From Hesseltinella vesiculosa (taxonomy: Eukaryota > Mucoromycota > Mucoromycetes > Mucorales > Cunninghamellaceae): 64,000 bases of DNA. The notes below the pieces were generated by a model that was not told the origin of the DNA, did no database searches, and saw only the letters and a list, made by a program, of their open reading frames with translations. This document shows positions 1 to 41,298 of this stretch, in pieces. The first letter of the stretch is position 1. Each line of letters begins with the position of its first letter. A program made the position numbers and the translations under genes. Location of the stretch: NCBI GenBank assembly GCA_002104935.1, contig MCGT01000012.1, forward strand, positions 372,001 to 436,000, in the 5' to 3' direction.

Positions 1-851
1 TTGAATCCAGGGCCACCTGTCTTGGTTTACGTTGAGGGCTCAGAGTTGCGAGGTTGGAAGCCAGGGCTAGTTTCAGATGCCCGTCAGTAGGGTGCTATGA
101 CGACAGTTGTGCCTCCACTGCCCCCGGGGACCCAGGGGGGCCGTGTCTAGCTAGCAACGGACCGTTTTCGCACAATGGTGGCACAGCAACAATTTGTGCA
201 CTTCCCTCATGATTCCAAAGCCTTTGAGGCAAAAAAAAAGCCATGCCACATAGCCCAGCATATGCCAATGATTTGACTGGTGGGTCAAAAGCAAAGGCGC
301 CGTGCCAGAGGGGGCCTGGCCAGCCACCTGGATCGATGTCTCTTGCAAAAAAAAAAAAAAAAGTGGTCAGTGCATCATGTTCCACAACGTTTCTGATTTT
401 TTTTTTTGGCATTTTTTTTTCTGTCTCTGACGTACCATTCAATTCCAAAACAAAAAAAAAGTGCTTGTTGCTCAGGGGTGCAATTTTTTTCGGTGCACGT
501 GTCCCTTTTGTTGCTTTTACGCGACGTCGCCCTCGTGGATCCCGGTTGAGGACAGGGGAGGCGTCGTCATAGCAAATTCCCTACCAAACAGACATCCAAG
601 CGCCGGAGAAGACGACCAACCATATAGTGTGGAGCCAGAGACTGCCAAGACAGGGGCCAAGACAGGCCAACGAAGGGGGGGGGGGAGAACTTGAACCTTC
701 GTTGGCCACACGCCACATCATCCCAGGAGCTTGGCTAGACATCAATGATTAAATAAAAAAAAAAAGTCGGGTGAGTATTGCCTTTCAGTTGCATTATTTT
801 TTCTCAACTTACGCAAAGCATCCCGAGACGATGTGGCGGGGGGGCCAAGAA
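1..851. other. 3' flank of the microexon gene with decayed exon copies
   Basis: No independent gene is supported here. On the minus strand the stretch 517-735 looks like a third, diverged copy of the terminal exon of the neighbouring gene: it follows an acceptor at 736 and an intron (736-811) that is visibly homologous to the gene's last intron (1132-1205). It opens with a residue run resembling the start of exon 18 (APG followed by a bulky pair and W) and stays open until a TAA at 517-519. Further left, 95-448 is open on the minus strand and has splice-like sites, but I find no protein similarity that supports calling it an exon. Confidence 0.4.
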
Positions 852-1623
852 TCAGGTTGGGCCCCCAGGAGCGCCAAACATTGGGCCAAGGTTCGCCGTG
901 AAGTTGGGCAAAGGTTTTGCCCGACGTCCACGGCGACCACCAGCGCGACAGCGAGAGAGACCTTGAGCAGGTGCTGCTGCACCAGCAGCACCACGTAACC
1001 AGCCAACATGGCCGGCACCGACGCTAATTGCGTGGTCGGCGCCGACCACTGCCGCCCCCGTCGCAGTGTTTGATGCCACAGCATTGTTGTGGCGGGGGCG
1101 GAGATACCACACCACCCCGGGAGCAATGGAACTAGTCATCAATAATAAAAAGTAAGGTGAGTATGGCCATTGACGTTGCATAAAATTTTTCTTCTCTCAA
1201 CTTACACAAAGCGTCCCGGGACGATGTGGTAGGGGGGGAACCCCAGAAGCACCGTGCGGCCACCAGGCACGCTAACCATTGGACCGAAGGTCACCACGAG
1301 GTTGGGCATATGGTTTGCCCAACGTCGACGGTGACCTTCAACACGGCGACCGCCATTACGGCGGCCGCGGAGACTTGTGGCAGGCGCTGCAGGTGCAGCA
1401 GCGCCAAGAGCACCGGCAAAAAGGTCAACAGGGGCCCCAGAAGCAAAGGGCCCACCAGCAGCAGAAGACACACAACCAACAGGTGTGCCAGGCACACGGC
1501 CAGCACCAACGCCAGACACAAGGCAGCCAAAGCAAGAGGCTGGGTGCACGGCCCGAGCGCGCTTGAACTTGCGCTCGGGCAATTCTTTGCGGACCGTCGC
1601 CTCACGAGAGCGCTTGCCGAGAA
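517..1623 (-). repeat. Three tandem copies of a terminal exon plus its intron
   Basis: Exon 17 (1206-1623), exon 18 (852-1131, similarity running on to 812) and the stretch 517-735 are related. Exons 17 and 18 share a PN-x4-LGPM/FGPM segment, then PGG, then HIV-x-G just before the GTAAGTTGAG donor, and the introns after them (1132-1205 and 736-811) are similar through their length. Copy 2 is 5 bp shorter than copy 1 around 835-860 and so falls out of frame; copy 3 is more diverged. Confidence 0.7.
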
Positions 1624-4227
1624 CTATGTTGAAAGAAAAAAAAGGATCGCCATCAGCACCAAGTAAAATGTTTTAAAGTGAACTGAGAGATATACTTACC
1701 TGTGTAGCTCTCGTGAGGACGACGGGGGGAGCACCAGTCAACATCTGCTCCGGAGAGCAGATAAAATATGCCCCAATAAAGGGCATTGCTGGCCAGCGCA
1801 CGATTGCTGCGCCAGCCAGCCACAGAGAAGCCAGCCAAAAGGTTTACCGCCCCCTTGGCAAATGTTTGTGCCGTGGTCTTGATGTTGAGGGGGCGGAAGC
1901 AGGAAGAGGGAGCCTTGCCTTTCATCTGGGGCTTTGATGCGCCAACGACAGGAGCATGTCGACGCACCAATTTGCCTACAAGCAGGAAAAAGGTCAACGA
2001 CAGGTTCAAAAATTGTACATCCGGTTATTCAGCTTACCCCAGATTCCATTTTTGTTCGTCTGGGCACAAGTAATGGCACCCTTCTGGCCAACAAATTTGA
2101 TGGGTGGCCAGTAGGTGCCAAAGTGCCCAGAACGCACATAAGCCGGGCCACGGGCCAGCAAACAAGGCCCAGGAAACAGAACCACGCCAGGAAGGTAGGG
2201 CAGAGTCGGGCCCAGGCCCAGAAATTGGTTTGGCCAGATGGCCCCTACCATTGTCGAGGGGCCAGACGCACCGGAGGAGACAGCTAAGAAAATAAAACCC
2301 GGGTGTTACGTCTATTGACAAGAACCGTCCCTATTTTCTTTTTAGCAAAACTTACACTTTGGGCCACGTCGGCCTACAAAAATAAGGAAGGGGCAGAAAA
2401 TGAGTGTGAGTGTGATTCGTAAAATGTTGCTTTCCTCAAAAGTACTGATACTTACCAGAGAAGCGGGTGTTGTCGTCCCACACCCCGCGTCGCTTATTGC
2501 CGACGCGGGCAGGAGCGGGAGAAGCAGGCGCGACAGGGCGAGAGAGCACAACGAATTTGCAGGCGTCTAGTTTTAAAAAAAGTGATTCTTAACAACATCC
2601 TCTAGGTAATTTTTTGTATGGCTTACGTTTTGGCCCGCGACGGTCTATAGAAGAAAACGAAAAAAAGTCAGTTTCAAAGGCTGCTTTCGACAGCGAAGAT
2701 GGCAAAGAACTTACTGGCGAAGCGGGCCGAGTCGTCGCCGTCCGAGCGGCGCTTGTTGGCTGCCCGCAACTTGAGTCGTCGGACAAGCAAGTTGCGGAGC
2801 AGCGAGTCCCCTGGCAAGGAGGACGGAGCCAAAGCACGGAACCGAGCTGCAGGTTGGGTTGCTGAAGGCAGTGGACGGAAAGCAGCCGAAAGGGCCTCGG
2901 ACACAGGACCCAACAGGGGAGAACCCACGGGCGACAATGGTGATGGTGGCAAGTGGGCGTAGCCAGGGCGAGTGATGGGCGCAGGGGCAGAAGACACCGA
3001 GACAGGAGCAGAAGACACAGAAGAGGTGGCATAGGGGGCATAGGTGTTTTTTTTGGCTTTTTCTACTGCATTTTCATAATTTTCTATTGTGAATAAAGAA
3101 ATGTTAAGCGGCTATATTATCCATGACCTTATTTGTGTCTCAATGACAGCATGTTAATCTTACTTTGGGTGTTTTCTTCTATGATTGCCAAGGGTAAAAA
3201 AATATAAAAAAACGAAAAAGCAGTTAAATCATACAGTTGTTTTAGCTTTTGTGTTTCAAAGCAACATACGATTTTCATCGGCGGGAACATAACCGGAATT
3301 GGGTGCTAGAGAAAAAAAATTGATGAGACTGGCTCATTTTCGTAAGAGTGCGGCACATTAAGCTCTTACAATTTTTTTCTATGTGGACAAGAAAATCATG
3401 GTCAGGGATCTTTAAATTTTGATTCATTTTGTTTCATTCTTTTTTTAATCGAATGATACTTACGGGTTTTTTGATCTAGAGCAGCACAATGGAATATAAT
3501 AGAACGAAAAATTGGTAAGCAACATGTTGCTTTGGTACTTGTTTTTTTTAAAGTAACTTACTTTCTTCATCGGCGGGAACACAACCGGAATCTAGAGAGA
3601 GAAAAAAAAAATAAATCCGACTCATTCTTGCAGGAGTCCGTGCACGAGTTCTCACCATTTTTTTCTATGCGGAGAAGAAAATGGACTAGGTCAGCGATCA
3701 CTGCATTAAATCGTTCATTTTTTTTAGTTTTTTCGAATGGCACTTACGGGTTTTTTGATCTAAAGCAGCAAAATGGAATAAAAAAAGAAAAACAAAAAAT
3801 GGTTAAGCATGAAGTTGATTTGGTTCTTTTTTTTTCAAAGCGACTTACAATTTTCTTCGGCGGGAACATAACCGGAATAAGGGGCGGCTAGTAAAAAAAA
3901 AAAAAAAAAAAAAAGGGTTGTGTGAGTAAACAAACATTGCGATACAATAGCAATGCCTAGCAAGCAGCCAATGGCACCTATAAAGGAATCTTACAGAAGA
4001 AGGTGGAAGGTGATGCGAATGATGGTGGTGGAGGTGAGGCACTACGGCCGGGGGAAGCACGGGAAGCAGAGGCAGTAGCTGAGGCAGCAGCGCGGTCGTC
4101 GTCTATTGAGGGGGAAAAAAAAATAGGAAAAGGATGTTAAAGTTAGCACAAATGCATCGATTAACTTGCATCCATCTAATCTATTAGACTTAGACAGATG
4201 GCAACCTTTCTTACAGGCAGGCATCAT
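852..4227 (-). CDS. Unrecognised serial-microexon protein (18 exons, 672 aa)
   Basis: Exons (minus, in order): 4215-4227, 3995-4102, 3849-3887, 3748-3759, 3656-3664, 3562-3591, 3464-3475, 3370-3378, 3270-3305, 3164-3178, 2715-3083, 2627-2644, 2456-2566, 2356-2373, 2038-2283, 1700-1975, 1206-1623, 852-1131. Ten exons are 9-39 nt. Every junction is AG/GT with GTAAGN, GTGAG or GTATG donors; introns 1-16 are all phase 1 and intron 17 is phase 2, and the 2019-nt sum stays open from ATG to TGA. Residues 41-94 come wholly from microexons and repeat SGYVPADEN-like, QKT and QKN blocks. Later parts repeat NKRR-DD-RF followed by RRGPK, then Ala/Gly/Pro-rich and basic stretches (KRSRE, RGRR) that hint at a nuclear or RNA-binding role. 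I know no family. The 3' end is uncertain because exon 18 carries a 5-bp net deletion relative to its paralogue exon 17 that brings in the stop. Expression is not shown by the sequence. Confidence 0.75.
3270..3887 (-). repeat. Tandem duplication of a ~290-bp microexon cassette
   Basis: The core CGGCGGGAAC recurs on the plus strand at 3279, 3571 and 3858, periods of 292 and 287 bp. Each full unit (3270-3561 and 3562-3848) holds three minus-strand microexons in the order 12 nt, 9 nt, then 30-36 nt; a 39-nt copy of the last type starts the array at 3849-3887. The 12-nt exon is identical in both units and the 9-nt exon differs at its last base, while introns have drifted. Because all exons are phase 1 and multiples of three, duplication or skipping keeps the frame. 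Confidence 0.85.
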
Positions 4228-5800
4228 CACGAATCAGGAAAGAAGAAAGAAGAAGAAGAAAAAAGAAAACACTCTTTCTCGACCCTTTTACCTGGTTTCC
4301 TTCGGCTCTAAGCCAATCATATTGCAGTATTCGTTGGCATTCTGCCCTTTTTCTTTACTTTTGAAACTCTTAGATCGAAGCAATGCGCTAGAAGTTCATT
4401 GAAATGACATATGATCAAGATAGCCTCCCAAGTAGTTTTCTTGATAAGTTAACACTTGATATCCTCCAAAAAGAAAAAAAGAGGCTGTTGTTAGGTTCTT
4501 TGACAGTGGATGACTGGACGATTGTCAACATTGAATCGAGGAAACTGCCTCAGAATATCTTTGTGCGAAAAGCCGCAAGCCACTATCCTGATGCCCGCTT
4601 TTCTCTGTCCCGCACCAAAGCATGAAGGGAGAGAGGGAAGGATGTAGTGCATGTTCCTTCATACTCCAAACTTTGAATTGGCTGGCGATTGAGGAGCTCA
4701 TCCCAACAACCTCTCTAGCTCCTCACCACAGCGTCAGACAGGCCAATGCTTTTAAGCATGATCTTATCTCATTATGTTTTACACGTTCGCAGACTTTGAG
4801 ATGAATTGGGCTTGTTTTCTTTATTGGATCGCCTGGGGACGTCTGACACAAAAAAATGGGAAAGTTCGAAAAAAAAAAAGAATGAACGCTGCGCAGAACT
4901 TTTGGAGTGACAGATCAGCGTGATATTTTGCATGGGAGCACAAACGTAAGATTAGTGATAGTGCTAAAAAATCATGTCGAATGGTGACAGGTTTCCAACG
5001 TTTAAGGCATGTGTTTTGAGCCGTTATAATTCCTCGGGCTATGTTAGATGTATGGAAAATTTGGTGTGAGCTGGTAGACATCAGACTTTCGATGATTTAT
5101 TGGCGAGCATATTGAGGCGAAGTAGAAGAAGAAAGGGGAAGAAAATAGGGTGTGTCCAAAAAAGACAAAAAAAAAAAAGTGCACAGACAAGAAAAGGAGA
5201 AAGCTTTTCAACAAAAAAAAGAACAGCGTTTTTGAAATTGGCTTTTTGGATTGGCTGCGGGCTGCAGGAGAATTGGAAATGGCTAAATATTCGCAGCAGC
5301 AAATTGGCTGGGTGACCTCCTTCGACCGACCTGAGTTTCTCGGTATCGTCATCATCGATGTGTTTTTGCATCTATGCAAAATTTCACATCAATCCATTTG
5401 GTCAAAAGTGCGGTAAAGTGCTGGTTCCATTTTGAAAAAAATGGAAAAAAAATATATCGCCAGCTAAAATCGCTGGCCGATCCAACAACGGTCGTCGATG
5501 ACGTGTTGTGACTGGTTGAACAACTGGATCAGAGATATGCTTCTTAGTTATGTCTAGGGTTGCACTACCTACTGATCATCGGGAGCGTGCAACGTTTTAT
5601 GGCTAACTTTTCTAAAGTGAACCCTATCCTGACGCTGGTAGGAAGCACGAGGGGGAAACAAGCTTCTTTATTAAAAACATTTCATCCAGGTTTGTTAGTA
5701 TGAAATCTAAGAGCCAAAGAGTGATGATGCGAAACGATGTTGCCAAAAGTCGTATCGGGGATGATGTTCAAGAAAATCAAGCTCGTACTTTGCCAAGCCT

Positions 5801-6406: not shown

Positions 6407-8016
6407 CTACATCAATGACAAGGAGGTGGCATGATGACAAGTGGGTGAGGCGACACTAACCAAGCTGAGCTTTCGAGGAGCAGACAAAGGGAGCTGCTTT
6501 CTTGAGAGATCGGATAGTGTCGAGGAGCATTCTGAGGATGATTGGGATGAAGATGACGACAAGGAGAAGGAAGGTGACATGATGGGAGTGCGCTGGTCAG
6601 AAGAACGGCTGTTGGCAGAGGACGAGCAGGCAAGGGCGACAGTGGCTGGCATGGGGGTCTTGGGCAAAGGTGGCAGGGCGGTGGCATGTTCAATGTCGTA
6701 GTCTTGGATGTAGGTCATCAGGGTATCTTTCCAAGACTTTGACCATTTCATGTTGGGATTAGGCTGAGCAGAGGAGGCGGTGGGTGGCTCTGTGGGCTTG
6801 GGCGAGGTGGCCGGTGTCTTTTTTTTGCGGGCAAGGCCGAGGGATTGAGGAGGCAATGAAGAAAAGAGGTGTCGCTGTTGTCTTGGTTTAGGGGAGGTGG
6901 AGGAGAGAGAGGAGGATGAGGAGGCGTTGGAGGAAGGAGGAATGGGAGAAGGAGCGGCTGCATGGACGGTGGGCTTGGTGGAAAAAAAGAGGGAAGCCAA
7001 TGGGTTTTTTCTTAACGATCCAAACTGCCTTGAGGGAGTGGCAGGAGGGGTAGAAGGTGGAGGGTGAACAGGTTTGCGTGTGAAATGGACGCATTTTTGG
7101 ATGCGTAACCGCAATTCTGGAAGCGAGATGCGCAAGGCGGGGTCCAAGCAGAAGACACGACAGAGGATGTCGTCCAGCTCGTCGGAGATCTTGGGCAGGA
7201 TGCGTCGGAAGAAGTGCTTGGGTTGTTGCACAAAGGCGGCAAAGGTTGCATCGTCCATGTTGGCTTGTTTCCAAGGGTTGCGACCGGTGGTGAAGTTGAC
7301 CAGGATCACACCCAAAGACCAAATGTCATTCTTTTGTGTGCTGTAGCCCTTGATGCGTTGGTTATTGCGGATCATTCCGCTTTGGCATTCTGGAAGAAAA
7401 AGAAAAGATGGACCAGTTAGAAACAAAGTGGATGAGGATGATGATGTTTGACTCTACCAGGTGAAAAGTAAAAGGTGGAACCAAAACCGAACTCGGTCGA
7501 GACAGATTGGCAGGTGGCCAGACCAAAATCGGCGAGTTTGACGCGCCAGTCTGGAAACACGAGGATGTTTTCTGGTTTGAGGTCACGGTGAGCAACACTG
7601 TGTTTATGGCAATAGTCGACGGCGTCGAGGATCTGCAAAAAGATGTAGCGGATGGCTTCGTCATTGCCCATGAGCCCATGGACTGGGTGAGTGATGGCAG
7701 CAAACAGGTCGCCACCGGGGGCATATTCAAGCACCATAAAGGTCATGCCGTTTTCTCTCACGACCTTTTCAAAGGTCAGGATATTGTCATGGCCCGAGAG
7801 TTGGGCATGGATATCGATTTCACTGCGACTGACCTTGGTGTTGGATAGAAGTTTGATGGCGTATTTTTTCTGTGTTTTGCGCGTGTGGTGGCCGAGGTAG
7901 ACGATGCCATAGGCTCCGACACCAAGGATGGATTTCAATTTGATACGGCCATTATCGATGTGCGTGCCTAGTAATGAAGGTGGGTCAATGGTATGTGTAA
8001 CGGTATTTGCTGGCAT
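6407..8016 (-). CDS. Ser/Thr protein kinase, Ran1/Sks1/Ksp1-like
   Basis: Two exons, 7458-8016 and 6407-7389, joined in phase 1, give 513 aa. The kinase domain fills about residues 30-305. The glycine loop LGVGAYG is at 31-37, the ATP lysine is K55 in YAIK, the catalytic HRDLKPEN has D145, and DFG is at 163-165. The splice junction rebuilds the activation-segment end SPECQS, where PEC replaces the usual APE; this form is typical of the fungal Ran1/Pat1, Sks1, Vhs1 and Ksp1 group, which act in nutrient signalling and differentiation. The C-terminal 200 residues are Ser/Pro-rich and probably disordered. The start is the ATG at 8016; the frame stays open upstream but only through poly-A-derived Phe codons, which I take as 5' UTR. 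The donor GTAGAG is weak but gives the correct motif. Kinase identity is sure, subfamily is inference. Confidence 0.88.
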
Positions 8017-8805
8017 GAAAGGAAAATAGAATAAAGGAACACGAGGAGAGAGAGGCAAAAAAAAAAAAAAAAAAAAAAAAAAGGAAACAGCCGCTGTATT
8101 TATAGTCAAAAGGCCAAAGGGAAAAGACAAAAAAAAAGGAGAAGGTGGGTGGTGGTGAATGGGTTGTTTGGAAGCTAATCCAAGTCATTGGTAAAGACTC
8201 CTTGCAGCCAGTGACCCAAAAAAAGGACATTAGCGAACCCCCCTATTTTTTTTTTTTTTAAAAAAAAAAAACCTGACAATGGCAAGTGGCCACCTGAAGG
8301 TAACCAGATACAAGCACTCGTTGGAAAATTAGAATTGCCTCGAAGGAACGCGGGGTATTCTTAGTGGCAGTCTTTTCAACTCCAAAAGCATGAATCAAAT
8401 TTGGCAATTCCCATGAAAAATAAGCCTGCAATCAAGTAGCAGCCTGGCTTGCCTCAGGAAAGCGTCGTTTCACTTGTGCCAAAAGATGATCGGCACAACA
8501 TTTTTTTTATTTATTTCCAGAAGAAGTATGCGTGGTTAAATAAGCAACACAATTGAAACTGTACAAAATAATAAGAATAATAATAAAACGCTTGGTAATT
8601 CAAATAAAAAACCCATCGAAAAAAGGGAGCGAAAAAAAAAAAAAAAAAAAAGGCGTTGAGGCAAGGAGTAAACGATTTTTGAATTGACAAGGAGATGCAA
8701 AAAAAAAAAAAAAAAAAAAGAGAGAGAGAGAAAAAAAGTAATTCCTGTGGTAAAAAAATGGAAGAGGAGACACAGACCGCAAGATCCAAGTTTGGCCAAG
8801 ATCCA
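8017..8805. other. Intergenic between kinase and deacetylase genes
   Basis: Kinase 5' flank and deacetylase 3' flank, both transcribed leftward. It holds several long A tracts, including 26 A at 8057-8082 and tracts near 8637-8651 and 8700-8718. I see no gene. Confidence 0.5.
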
Positions 8806-39859: not shown

Positions 39860-41298
39860 AATCACCCCATCCTCGCTTATTATTTCTGTCCTGTCCTGTC
39901 CTGTATTTTTGTCCATTTTATCCACCCCACCCCCACCATCATAAAACACAGATTAGCCAAAGTGAGAACAGGGAACGGACTAGTAGAGATGGACATCCAA
40001 AAACCGCCTGTCCCCGGCGCTGCCTGTCAGAAGCGATTCTTCGAGGGAAAGAGCAAAAAAAGGCAAGAGGACAGGCTTCATTGCACTTGTTGGGTCGTTT
40101 GGTTTTGGGTGACATTTCCATACCACACATGGCGGTTCTGCAGGCTTGGAATCATCCAATAAACTATGTTTTTCTGCTCTGTTTGCTCCATGTTAAATTA
40201 AAGTGCGCAAGCAAGGAAAACCGGATGCGCGAGAAATCGGTATAATGCATGTTTGCCGGCCATCTCGCTCATCCCTGTCTGAGAGAGCCGCAGTTTTTAT
40301 TCAGGGTCATTTCTCACCATTTTTTCACTGGTTTGGAAAATTTGGGATGAATTTGTTTAAAGAAATTTGACACTGTGATCTTTGATCAGATCGCTTGGGT
40401 CCCCTGAGGGCAATGGATGGTTTTTTTTAGCGGAGGAACCAGATGTGTCAAAATATAAAGTGAGCAAGCATTGGCTTGGCGACCTTCACCAATCGACCCG
40501 ATTTATTTAACACCATCATCATTCATGCACATACGTACCCTTACAAAGTCTCAGATCGATCCAGTCACTCGAACGTGAGGTGGTGGATATGCTTTTTGTT
40601 TTTATTTTCAAAAGGAAGAAATTGGATGGTCTCAATCTCTGTACAGGGTTTTCGATACCTGGCTACGCACGCAGAGCAGCCATCTCCAAAGCAATCCAAA
40701 AACCAAATGTCCTGATTTGATAAAGAAACCAGCACCTTGATCATGTCGGACTTACCGTTGGCACCAGCTCTGCATCAGCAAATCCAAGGCATTGTGCGGA
40801 GATGGAATACGGCCATCCAAATTCCTTCGTCATTTTGAAAAGAAAAAGCAGATGCTTTACAGCACTTTGAGTGACTGGGTCGTTCTGAGACTTTGTAAGG
40901 GTACGCATGTGCATGAATGATGATGGTGTTGAAAAAATCGGGTCGATCGGTATTCCTCCGCCAAAAAGAAAAAAAAATTGGTTGTCAGCCAAATCAACAG
41001 AGGCCCCTGCTGCTTTTCAAAAAAAGGAATGCAATGCGTGGCACATTTGATCGATTGGATCAACCTGAAATTTTGAGTAAGAGCAGTATATTGCAAAAAC
41101 TTCGTTTGCTGAAAAAATAAAGTCGATCAGTGATGGTCACCCAGCCCAGGAAGTCAAAAGAACAAAAAAGGCTCAGCCAACAGTAAAATTTCAGTATCCG
41201 ACCTTTCCTCAGATGCTTGAAACTCCAAGCGCAACACGTCTCTTTGCTCTTTTTCCTTTCTTTTCCTTTTTCTTTTTTTGTCGTTTGCACCTTGGTTA
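39860..41298. other. Intergenic with a foldback repeat
   Basis: Chitinase 3' flank and ATG5 5' flank. Apart from the inverted repeat at 40424-40978 I see no feature; the short frames over that repeat are mirror images of each other, as expected from the fold. Confidence 0.5.
40424..40978. repeat. Long imperfect inverted repeat (foldback)
   Basis: The left arm (from 40424, GCGGAGGAA) and the right arm (ending 40978, read in reverse GCGGAGGAA) mirror each other. The best-kept part pairs 40494-40568 with 40877-40948: both read GACCCGATTT, CACCATCATCATTCATGCAC and CCCTTACAAAGTCTCAGA with few mismatches. Similarity falls toward the centre near 40720-40760. Such a shape fits a foldback/MITE-type element or a hairpin-RNA source. 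No transposase is inside. Confidence 0.7.

Follow-up and report, generated by a model that had tools for sequence, protein, structure and literature searches.

The 64,000-nucleotide window of Hesseltinella vesiculosa (Mucorales, Cunninghamellaceae) considered here, which lies on contig MCGT01000012.1 (C4 below), carries on its minus strand a gene of a family with a deposited model, conserved splice sites and a symmetric chain of phase-1 microexons in the 5' half. Pieces of the gene, used as queries, found at least 14 copies of the family in the 27-Mb genome. The chain was built by tandem copying of a cassette; that the unit bearing the gene was dispersed as a DNA circle is strongly suggested, and the product may be a basic, largely disordered nuclear protein. 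Taken together, this reading appears to us reasonably probable. An earlier, sequence-only reading of the window reported the exon chain itself; it had not noticed that the gene is multi-copy, that the chain derives from cassettes or that the repeat unit is circularly permuted.

That chain was confirmed in full. The 18 exons run from 4227 down to 852 on the minus strand and join into 2019 nt, i.e., 672 codons and a stop. The product matches DM01DRAFT_1373689 of H. vesiculosa (P0001; 668 residues, 99%), and the deposited model follows this chain: it includes the 9-nt exon 8, leaves out the 9-nt exon 5 and starts at the second methionine. The ten tiny exons have, in order, the lengths 39, 12, 9, 30, 12, 9, 36, 15, 18 and 18 nt, all divisible by three and all bordered by AG and GT, exactly as had been claimed. 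Of the 17 donors, 15 are GTAAG; exon 5 has GTGAG and exon 9 has GTATG. The introns are 60-112 nt long; in the joined frame introns 1-16 all have phase 1, as the sequence-only reading stated, and intron 17 has phase 2. The features are as follows.

4215..4227, minus strand: exon 1, 13 nt, ATGATGCCTGCCT, with the start; the second ATG is used in the deposited model
4103..4214, minus strand: intron 1, with the block CTAATAGATTAGATGG at 4172-4187, strongly conserved between subfamilies
3995..4102, minus strand: exon 2, 108 nt
3849..3887, minus strand: microexon 3, 39 nt, cassette 1, SGYVPAEE
3748..3759, minus strand: microexon 4, 12 nt, cassette 1, QKT
3656..3664, minus strand: microexon 5, 9 nt, cassette 1, with a GTGAG donor, absent from the deposited model; an alternative acceptor gives a 30-nt version (3685-3656)
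3562..3591, minus strand: microexon 6, 30 nt, cassette 2, SGCVPADE
3464..3475, minus strand: microexon 7, 12 nt, cassette 2
3370..3378, minus strand: microexon 8, 9 nt, cassette 2, included in the deposited model
3270..3305, minus strand: microexon 9, 36 nt, cassette 3, SGYVPADE
3164..3178, minus strand: microexon 10, 15 nt, cassette 3
2715..3083, minus strand: exon 11, 369 nt, ending in KRRSDGDDSARFA
2627..2644, minus strand: microexon 12, 18 nt, NRRGPK, half of a repeated basic motif
2456..2566, minus strand: exon 13, 111 nt, ending in KRRGVWDDNTRFS
2356..2373, minus strand: microexon 14, 18 nt, coding for GRRGPK, which is one half of the second such motif
2038..2283, minus strand: exon 15, 246 nt
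1700..1975, minus strand: exon 16, 276 nt
1206..1623, minus strand: exon 17, 418 nt, with KRSREA...KRAR resembling a nuclear localisation signal (NLS), ending in phase 2; its end and the end of exon 18 repeat each other (76%)
852..1131, minus strand: exon 18, 280 nt with the stop
1..4988, minus strand: the window's share of the dispersed repeat unit, which in this copy (A) covers C4:about 367.9-377.0 kb

The window was scanned for microexon chains (exons of at most 39 nt) with fixed rules for donor, acceptor, phase, absence of stops and intron length. The longest phase-1 chain in 3100-4300 has 8 microexons, and 1000 dinucleotide shuffles gave at most 2, in agreement with the earlier statement that the chain is beyond chance; at exon 5 the scan took the 30-nt variant (3685-3656) instead of the 9-nt exon. 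In the 2-kb windows of the 64-kb stretch outside 3100-4300 the longest chains had 2 microexons on the plus and 1 on the minus strand. A stricter scan, which also demanded a branch-site match, gave a chain of 4, and no chain above 1 appeared in 300 shuffles. With the rules widened a little (45 nt, both strands) and applied to 14 family loci, sense chains of 3-10 microexons were found in 12 and antisense chains reached 1-3. The remaining two, C4d and C1z, have a sense chain of only 2, and the 5' half of the gene is apparently absent there; the sense chain of 3 in C1c equals the best antisense one and does not stand out.

Besides A, the family includes B (C4:529-533 kb) and C (C4:480-484 kb), the main blocks of the three being 90-96% alike; C1a, C1b and C1c (C1:1463-1468, 1508-1515 and 1532-1536 kb); C24a (C24:36-43 kb); a third subfamily of C24b, C67, C34, C19 and C49, with main blocks 87-97% alike; and the partial copies C4d (C4:521.7-524 kb) and C1z (C1:36 kb). 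Most of them contain strings of 9-42 nt exons. Ten copies from three subfamilies were modelled, A, C1b and C24b by hand and seven by lifting through alignment (C49 is cut in exon 1). These models have GT at all 147 assessable donors and AG at 146 of 147 acceptors; the lone deviation, at C49 exon 3, comes from misalignment, as the family-wide scan gives a proper AG there. The conservation of the microexons is thus seen as splice sites kept across paralogues of the same genome. Proteins from different subfamilies are 41-63% identical, and their exon plans match nonetheless: exon 1 measures 10-16 nt, and there are SG-x-VPA exons, exons of 12 and 9 nt of the QKT or QKN type, and RRG-like exons of 18 nt. 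Introns have phase 1 as far as intron 16 in A, B and C and as far as intron 18 in C1b; in the third subfamily every modelled intron of its five copies has it. Introns of the family are 60-133 nt long. The block in intron 1 is nearly invariant between subfamilies whose exons differ strongly, and its 18-nt motif CTAATAGATTAGATGGAT has 11 genome matches at no more than one mismatch (10 exact, one with a single mismatch), all in family copies; C1c, C4d and C1z are without it. An Rfam scan of four loci gave 0 matches.

The arrangement of exons in the window gene points to the origin of the chain. Exons 3-5, 6-8 and 9-10 correspond to three repeats of 296, 286 and 222 bp with 73-79% DNA identity, and the number of cassettes differs in the family, from four in C1b to about one in the third subfamily. 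From this comparison of repeats we conclude that the chain grew through tandem duplication of a three-microexon cassette. Since every border has phase 1, the gain or loss of a cassette changes the protein by whole codons; cassettes or single microexons could therefore be gained, lost or skipped without a change of frame. In C34 an apparent in-frame deletion at about 268274-268380 (an alignment break in a lifted model) joins exons 8 and 10 and takes out exon 9, an 18-nt RRG microexon, together with both flanking introns.

Whether microexons are also skipped can be considered from four deposited proteins, assigned to copies by shared 10-mers: P0001 to A, P0002 to C and P0003 to C1b. By this count P0004 has more in common with C1b than with any other copy, yet by eye it shows residues of C1a, whose model is frame-broken. 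P0001 and P0002 omit exon 5 (P0001 reads YQKT-H-SGCVP in place of YQKTQKNDSGCVP), P0003 omits two microexons of the second cassette, and P0004 omits several and departs further; the omissions in the first three preserve the reading frame. The idea that exon skipping generates protein variants, put forward in the sequence-only reading, survives in part: in-frame skipping is possible in the window gene, judging by its exon phases, and the deposited proteins do omit different microexons; their differing content may be an annotation artefact. The fact that 9-nt exons are included in the deposited models at all suggests RNA support behind these models. A serious competitor, which we think somewhat less likely than not, is that the microexons are always included; on that view their symmetry simply follows from the duplication of cassettes, and the deposited models leave microexons out through errors of annotation. 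Gene predictors often overlook 9-nt exons, the donors and acceptors of the microexons are intact, and the microexons of A, B and C differ in 1 of 66 codons, all of which would suit constant inclusion. Against constant inclusion, P0003 and P0004 each omit another set of microexons than P0001 and P0002 do, frame is kept in P0001, P0002 and P0003, and the donor of exon 5, the exon omitted twice, is the weaker GTGAG in each of A, B and C.

Measured against synonymous sites, the reading frame shows constraint. This was found in 14 paralogue pairs, which are not independent, with larger exons and microexons kept apart; exons 1-16 were compared in A, B and C, exons 1-18 in C1a/C1b, and all 13 modelled exons in the third subfamily. 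In the larger exons the ratio of nonsynonymous to synonymous divergence (dN/dS) is 0.34-0.75 in 13 of the 14 pairs; in the other pair, C1b-C1a, it is 1.08, a value based on 4 substitutions over 106 codons. Relative to introns, synonymous sites are 1.9-7.1 times as diverged in 14 of 14 pairs. Positive selection was considered as the cause of exons outpacing introns; dN/dS below 1 in 13 of 14 pairs speaks against it. For the unexpectedly low intron divergence in these pairs the candidate causes are conserved introns, exon hypermutation and gene conversion.

The likeness of the copies does not stop at the gene. The units measure about 7.2 kb in C24b and C67, 6.2 kb in C34 and 10.4-10.5 kb in B and C, a range of about 6-10.5 kb. 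Closure was judged in eight copies (A, B, C and the five of the third subfamily), and five of them, C24b, C67, C34, B and C, are circular permutations that close on themselves. C1a and C1b have one common permutation. Copy C24b spans 113158 to 106002, and its ends are equivalent to C67:601230 and 601222; reciprocally, C67 spans 601588 to 594269 with ends equivalent to C24b:106367 and 106362. In C24b numbering, C34 starts at the equivalent of 112623 and stops at that of 112619, and is without, in cycle order, about 106490-106002 and 113158-112818. The bases shared at the openings of C24b, C67 and C34 amount to 2-8 bp (by eye). Copy C was opened at about B:533400, with 5-8 bp lost, and B at about C:489085, with about 60 bp lost just inside (both by eye). 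Opening points thus vary among copies, and there are no fixed element ends. The self-closing permutation of these five copies strongly suggests, as the simplest reading of the alignments, a circular DNA intermediate whose integration can start from differing opening points: the unit with its gene would have been dispersed as a DNA circle, with a new opening point at each integration.

We regard as unlikely the alternative that the units once stood head to tail in an old tandem array, whose remnants segmental duplication has since scattered without any circle. It would account for C1z, C19 and C49, which by eye show the end of the downstream region followed by X-like sequence (X being a block at the C67/C24b join) at the unit boundary, and for the fact that A is not closed. 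Pieces of an array should, however, vary arbitrarily in length, whereas C24b, C67 and C34 start and end at one point of the cycle within 2-8 bp, and B and C nearly do so.

The X block contains an abundant dispersed repeat, for which reason LTR-like ends (long terminal repeats) were rejected. The X repeat measures roughly 220-280 bp in the compared part, with 40 genome places scored among 966 candidates; it occurs at C67:601330-601547 and in the window at 4869-4992, 5264-5462 and 40421-41146 (weak, 65-75% identity).

With about the same low probability as the scattered array, the repeat could be an autonomous selfish element with the gene as its sole protein, needed for formation or upkeep of the circle. 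The permuted circles would suit such an element, as would a dispersed set of 14 or more copies whose non-coding parts are conserved, and six other open reading frames (ORFs) of the unit (of 26 listed, which include exons of the gene) gave nothing in Pfam at the curated cut-off. The sequences tested contain, on the other hand, no replication, recombination or transposase domain, and the unit has no fixed ends. Helitrons and Cryptons have fixed element ends and their own replication initiator or recombinase gene; unlike them, the Hesseltinella units have opening points that vary between copies. In the product and the six other ORFs, the frames scanned, Pfam found no replication initiator or recombinase domain. 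It also counts against a selfish element that a horizontally acquired segment of wine yeast spread likewise (PMC3053389): region B is a 17-kb segment amplified via extrachromosomal circular DNA, its copies being circularly permuted and dispersed, with no fixed ends and scant homology at the breakpoints. The Hesseltinella copies resemble region B in being dispersed and permuted, without fixed ends and with little homology at breakpoints, and differ from it in the size of the units, in main blocks about 3-13% diverged and in having one recognised gene. No report of circular DNA in Mucoromycota was found in a search of one open-access library. A bolder version, to which we attach still less probability, would make the unit a self-propagating circular element with a single protein, an orphan factor of the nucleus whose gene is a series of phase-1 microexons; it would multiply as a circle and integrate at any opening point, while cassette number and splicing keep altering the protein, e.g., so as to evade host silencing or recognition.

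As to the product, word-seeded protein searches (7992 and 2160 candidates scored), which are blind to unannotated or very divergent relatives, found four Hesseltinella proteins and no homologue outside H. vesiculosa, no other Mucorales genome having been searched as DNA. Pfam gave nothing at the curated cut-off for the window product, P0003 and P0004, and solved structures contained no relative of the product (best E 0.67). AlphaFold2, run on P0001 with three paralogues (a 4-sequence alignment), returned a mean predicted local distance difference test score (pLDDT) of 29 with no residue at or above 50, a low value that is consistent with disorder without showing it. Residues 100-668 of P0001 have 77 Lys and Arg against 16 Asp and Glu, with 45% Ala, Pro, Ser or Gly; in the four segments of the product these four residues make up 41-48%. 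The product contains two KRR-x3-DD-x2-RF-x2-RRGPK motifs, each split by an 18-nt microexon; these motifs, like KRSREA...KRAR, resemble nuclear signals. From the basic composition, the NLS-like motifs and the non-hydrophobic N-terminus we tentatively infer a basic, disordered nuclear protein, possibly nucleic-acid-binding, although we would not call this the probable outcome. The number of microexons, and perhaps the choice of splicing, would then set the length and composition of an N-terminal linker.

The suggestion of a secreted, effector-like protein found no support: the N-terminus of P0001 is not signal-peptide-like in a hydropathy scan, which is not a dedicated predictor (best 12-residue hydropathy 0.42 in the first 40 residues). 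The accompanying remark that no signal peptide is visible was right, since the first 40 residues contain no hydrophobic stretch. A secreted variable effector family comparable to the schistosome micro-exon genes (MEGs) or aphid bicycle genes is accordingly very improbable. It would fit the tiny symmetric exons, the multiple copies, the divergent large exons and the start of internal exons at codon position 2, as in bicycle genes; it does not fit the N-terminus, the basic NLS-like motifs, dN/dS below 1 in 13 of 14 pairs, or introns of 60-133 nt rather than kilobases. Least credible is an accidental reading of non-coding repeats: the chain does sit in tandem DNA repeats of 222-296 bp, along which splice-like sites would be copied, but the deposited models, conservation in three subfamilies and frame-keeping length changes speak against it, and the shuffles (8 against a maximum of 2) led us to reject it.

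Several known systems invite comparison. Paired CYC motifs mark aphid bicycle genes; no CYC string occurs in P0001-P0004, no sequence relation was found, and the signal-peptide-like N-terminus is missing. There is a likeness of architecture: bicycle genes have about 17 exons, many very small, nearly all internal ones beginning at codon position 2, and diverge fast (PMC9168663), and the Hesseltinella genes likewise have about 17 exons, small internal ones beginning at codon position 2 (the phase-1 introns 1-16), in a fast-diverging family. Schistosome MEGs have serial internal exons of 6-81 bp, mostly divisible by three, multiple copies, splice isoforms of the central exons, and introns of 0.1-5 kb, the central ones being long (up to 4-5 kb) (PMC10526429). 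The Hesseltinella genes share with them the many internal microexons divisible by three and the multiple copies, and differ in the N-terminus, the short introns and the long 3' exons. Trichoderma Xlr2, a transcription factor, has a single regulated and functional microexon (PMC11121469), as against a serial chain here.

A fungal precedent for serial microexons is the nank family of Tuber melanosporum, expanded fungal genes whose multiple tiny in-frame exons were proposed to diversify the protein (PMC4986451, PMC10197012). Like nank, the Hesseltinella family is a multi-copy fungal family with serial in-frame microexons; unlike it, no NACHT or ankyrin domain was found by Pfam in the window product, P0003 or P0004. 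The exons of nank have 3 nt, against 9-39 nt in Hesseltinella, and the phylum is different. Alternative splicing of microexons is a mark of nank; in Hesseltinella the deposited models differ in microexon content. The sequence-only reading knew of no serial microexon genes in Mucoromycota, and this part stands, as no report was found in searches of one open-access library, which is weak evidence of absence (a Mortierella paper containing the word uses it for a mapping option); a blanket statement that fungi have none would not hold, because Tuber nank, as described in these sources, has serial microexons.

Several observations weigh against the interpretation preferred here. Skipping is read from the deposited models alone, and may reflect choices of the software. 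The ratio of nonsynonymous to intron divergence is 0.99-3.6, so that constraint is not evident with introns as the yardstick. While the microexons of A, B and C are almost fixed, those of the third subfamily are less so, with up to 11 differences in 39 codons (C67-C19). C1a has frame-breaking differences, and C is without 1 nt in exon 17. The AlphaFold2 fold model of P0001 is uninformative. The closures of B and C require the small losses given above (5-8 bp and about 60 bp), and there is no closure in A, where roughly 0.8-1.7 kb of the cycle is missing or diverged, in C19, which has X-like sequence at both ends, or in C49. The X block at the C67/C24b join includes the dispersed repeat, of which there are at least 40 occurrences; what C67 and C24b have in common there (367 bp, 97%) does exceed, on both sides, the X repeat matches elsewhere (q513-879 against at most q521-829).

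Serial symmetric microexon genes have so far been seen in flatworms, aphids and one ascomycete family, and the orphan family of Hesseltinella would add a further, probably independent case in an early-diverging fungus. Hesseltinella is a saprotroph, and offers a system for asking how 9-nt exons are recognised. If the reading is true, the permuted units connect the structure of a microexon gene with spread through circular DNA, and a mode of gene amplification that has seldom been observed becomes testable in a filamentous fungus.

Three further observations concern the surroundings of the gene. Downstream in the unit, on the minus strand at C4:369.0-371.5 kb, there are tandem repeats of about 200-350 bp with intron-like GTAAG...AG stretches, possibly a spliced non-coding RNA, and similar sequence occurs in nine more family copies. 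Just outside the unit, at C4:362.1-366.3 kb, ORF reading gives two tandem transporter-like membrane genes in blocks about 74% alike. Upstream of the gene, on the minus strand at 6407-8184 of the window, ORFs resemble by eye a serine/threonine protein kinase.

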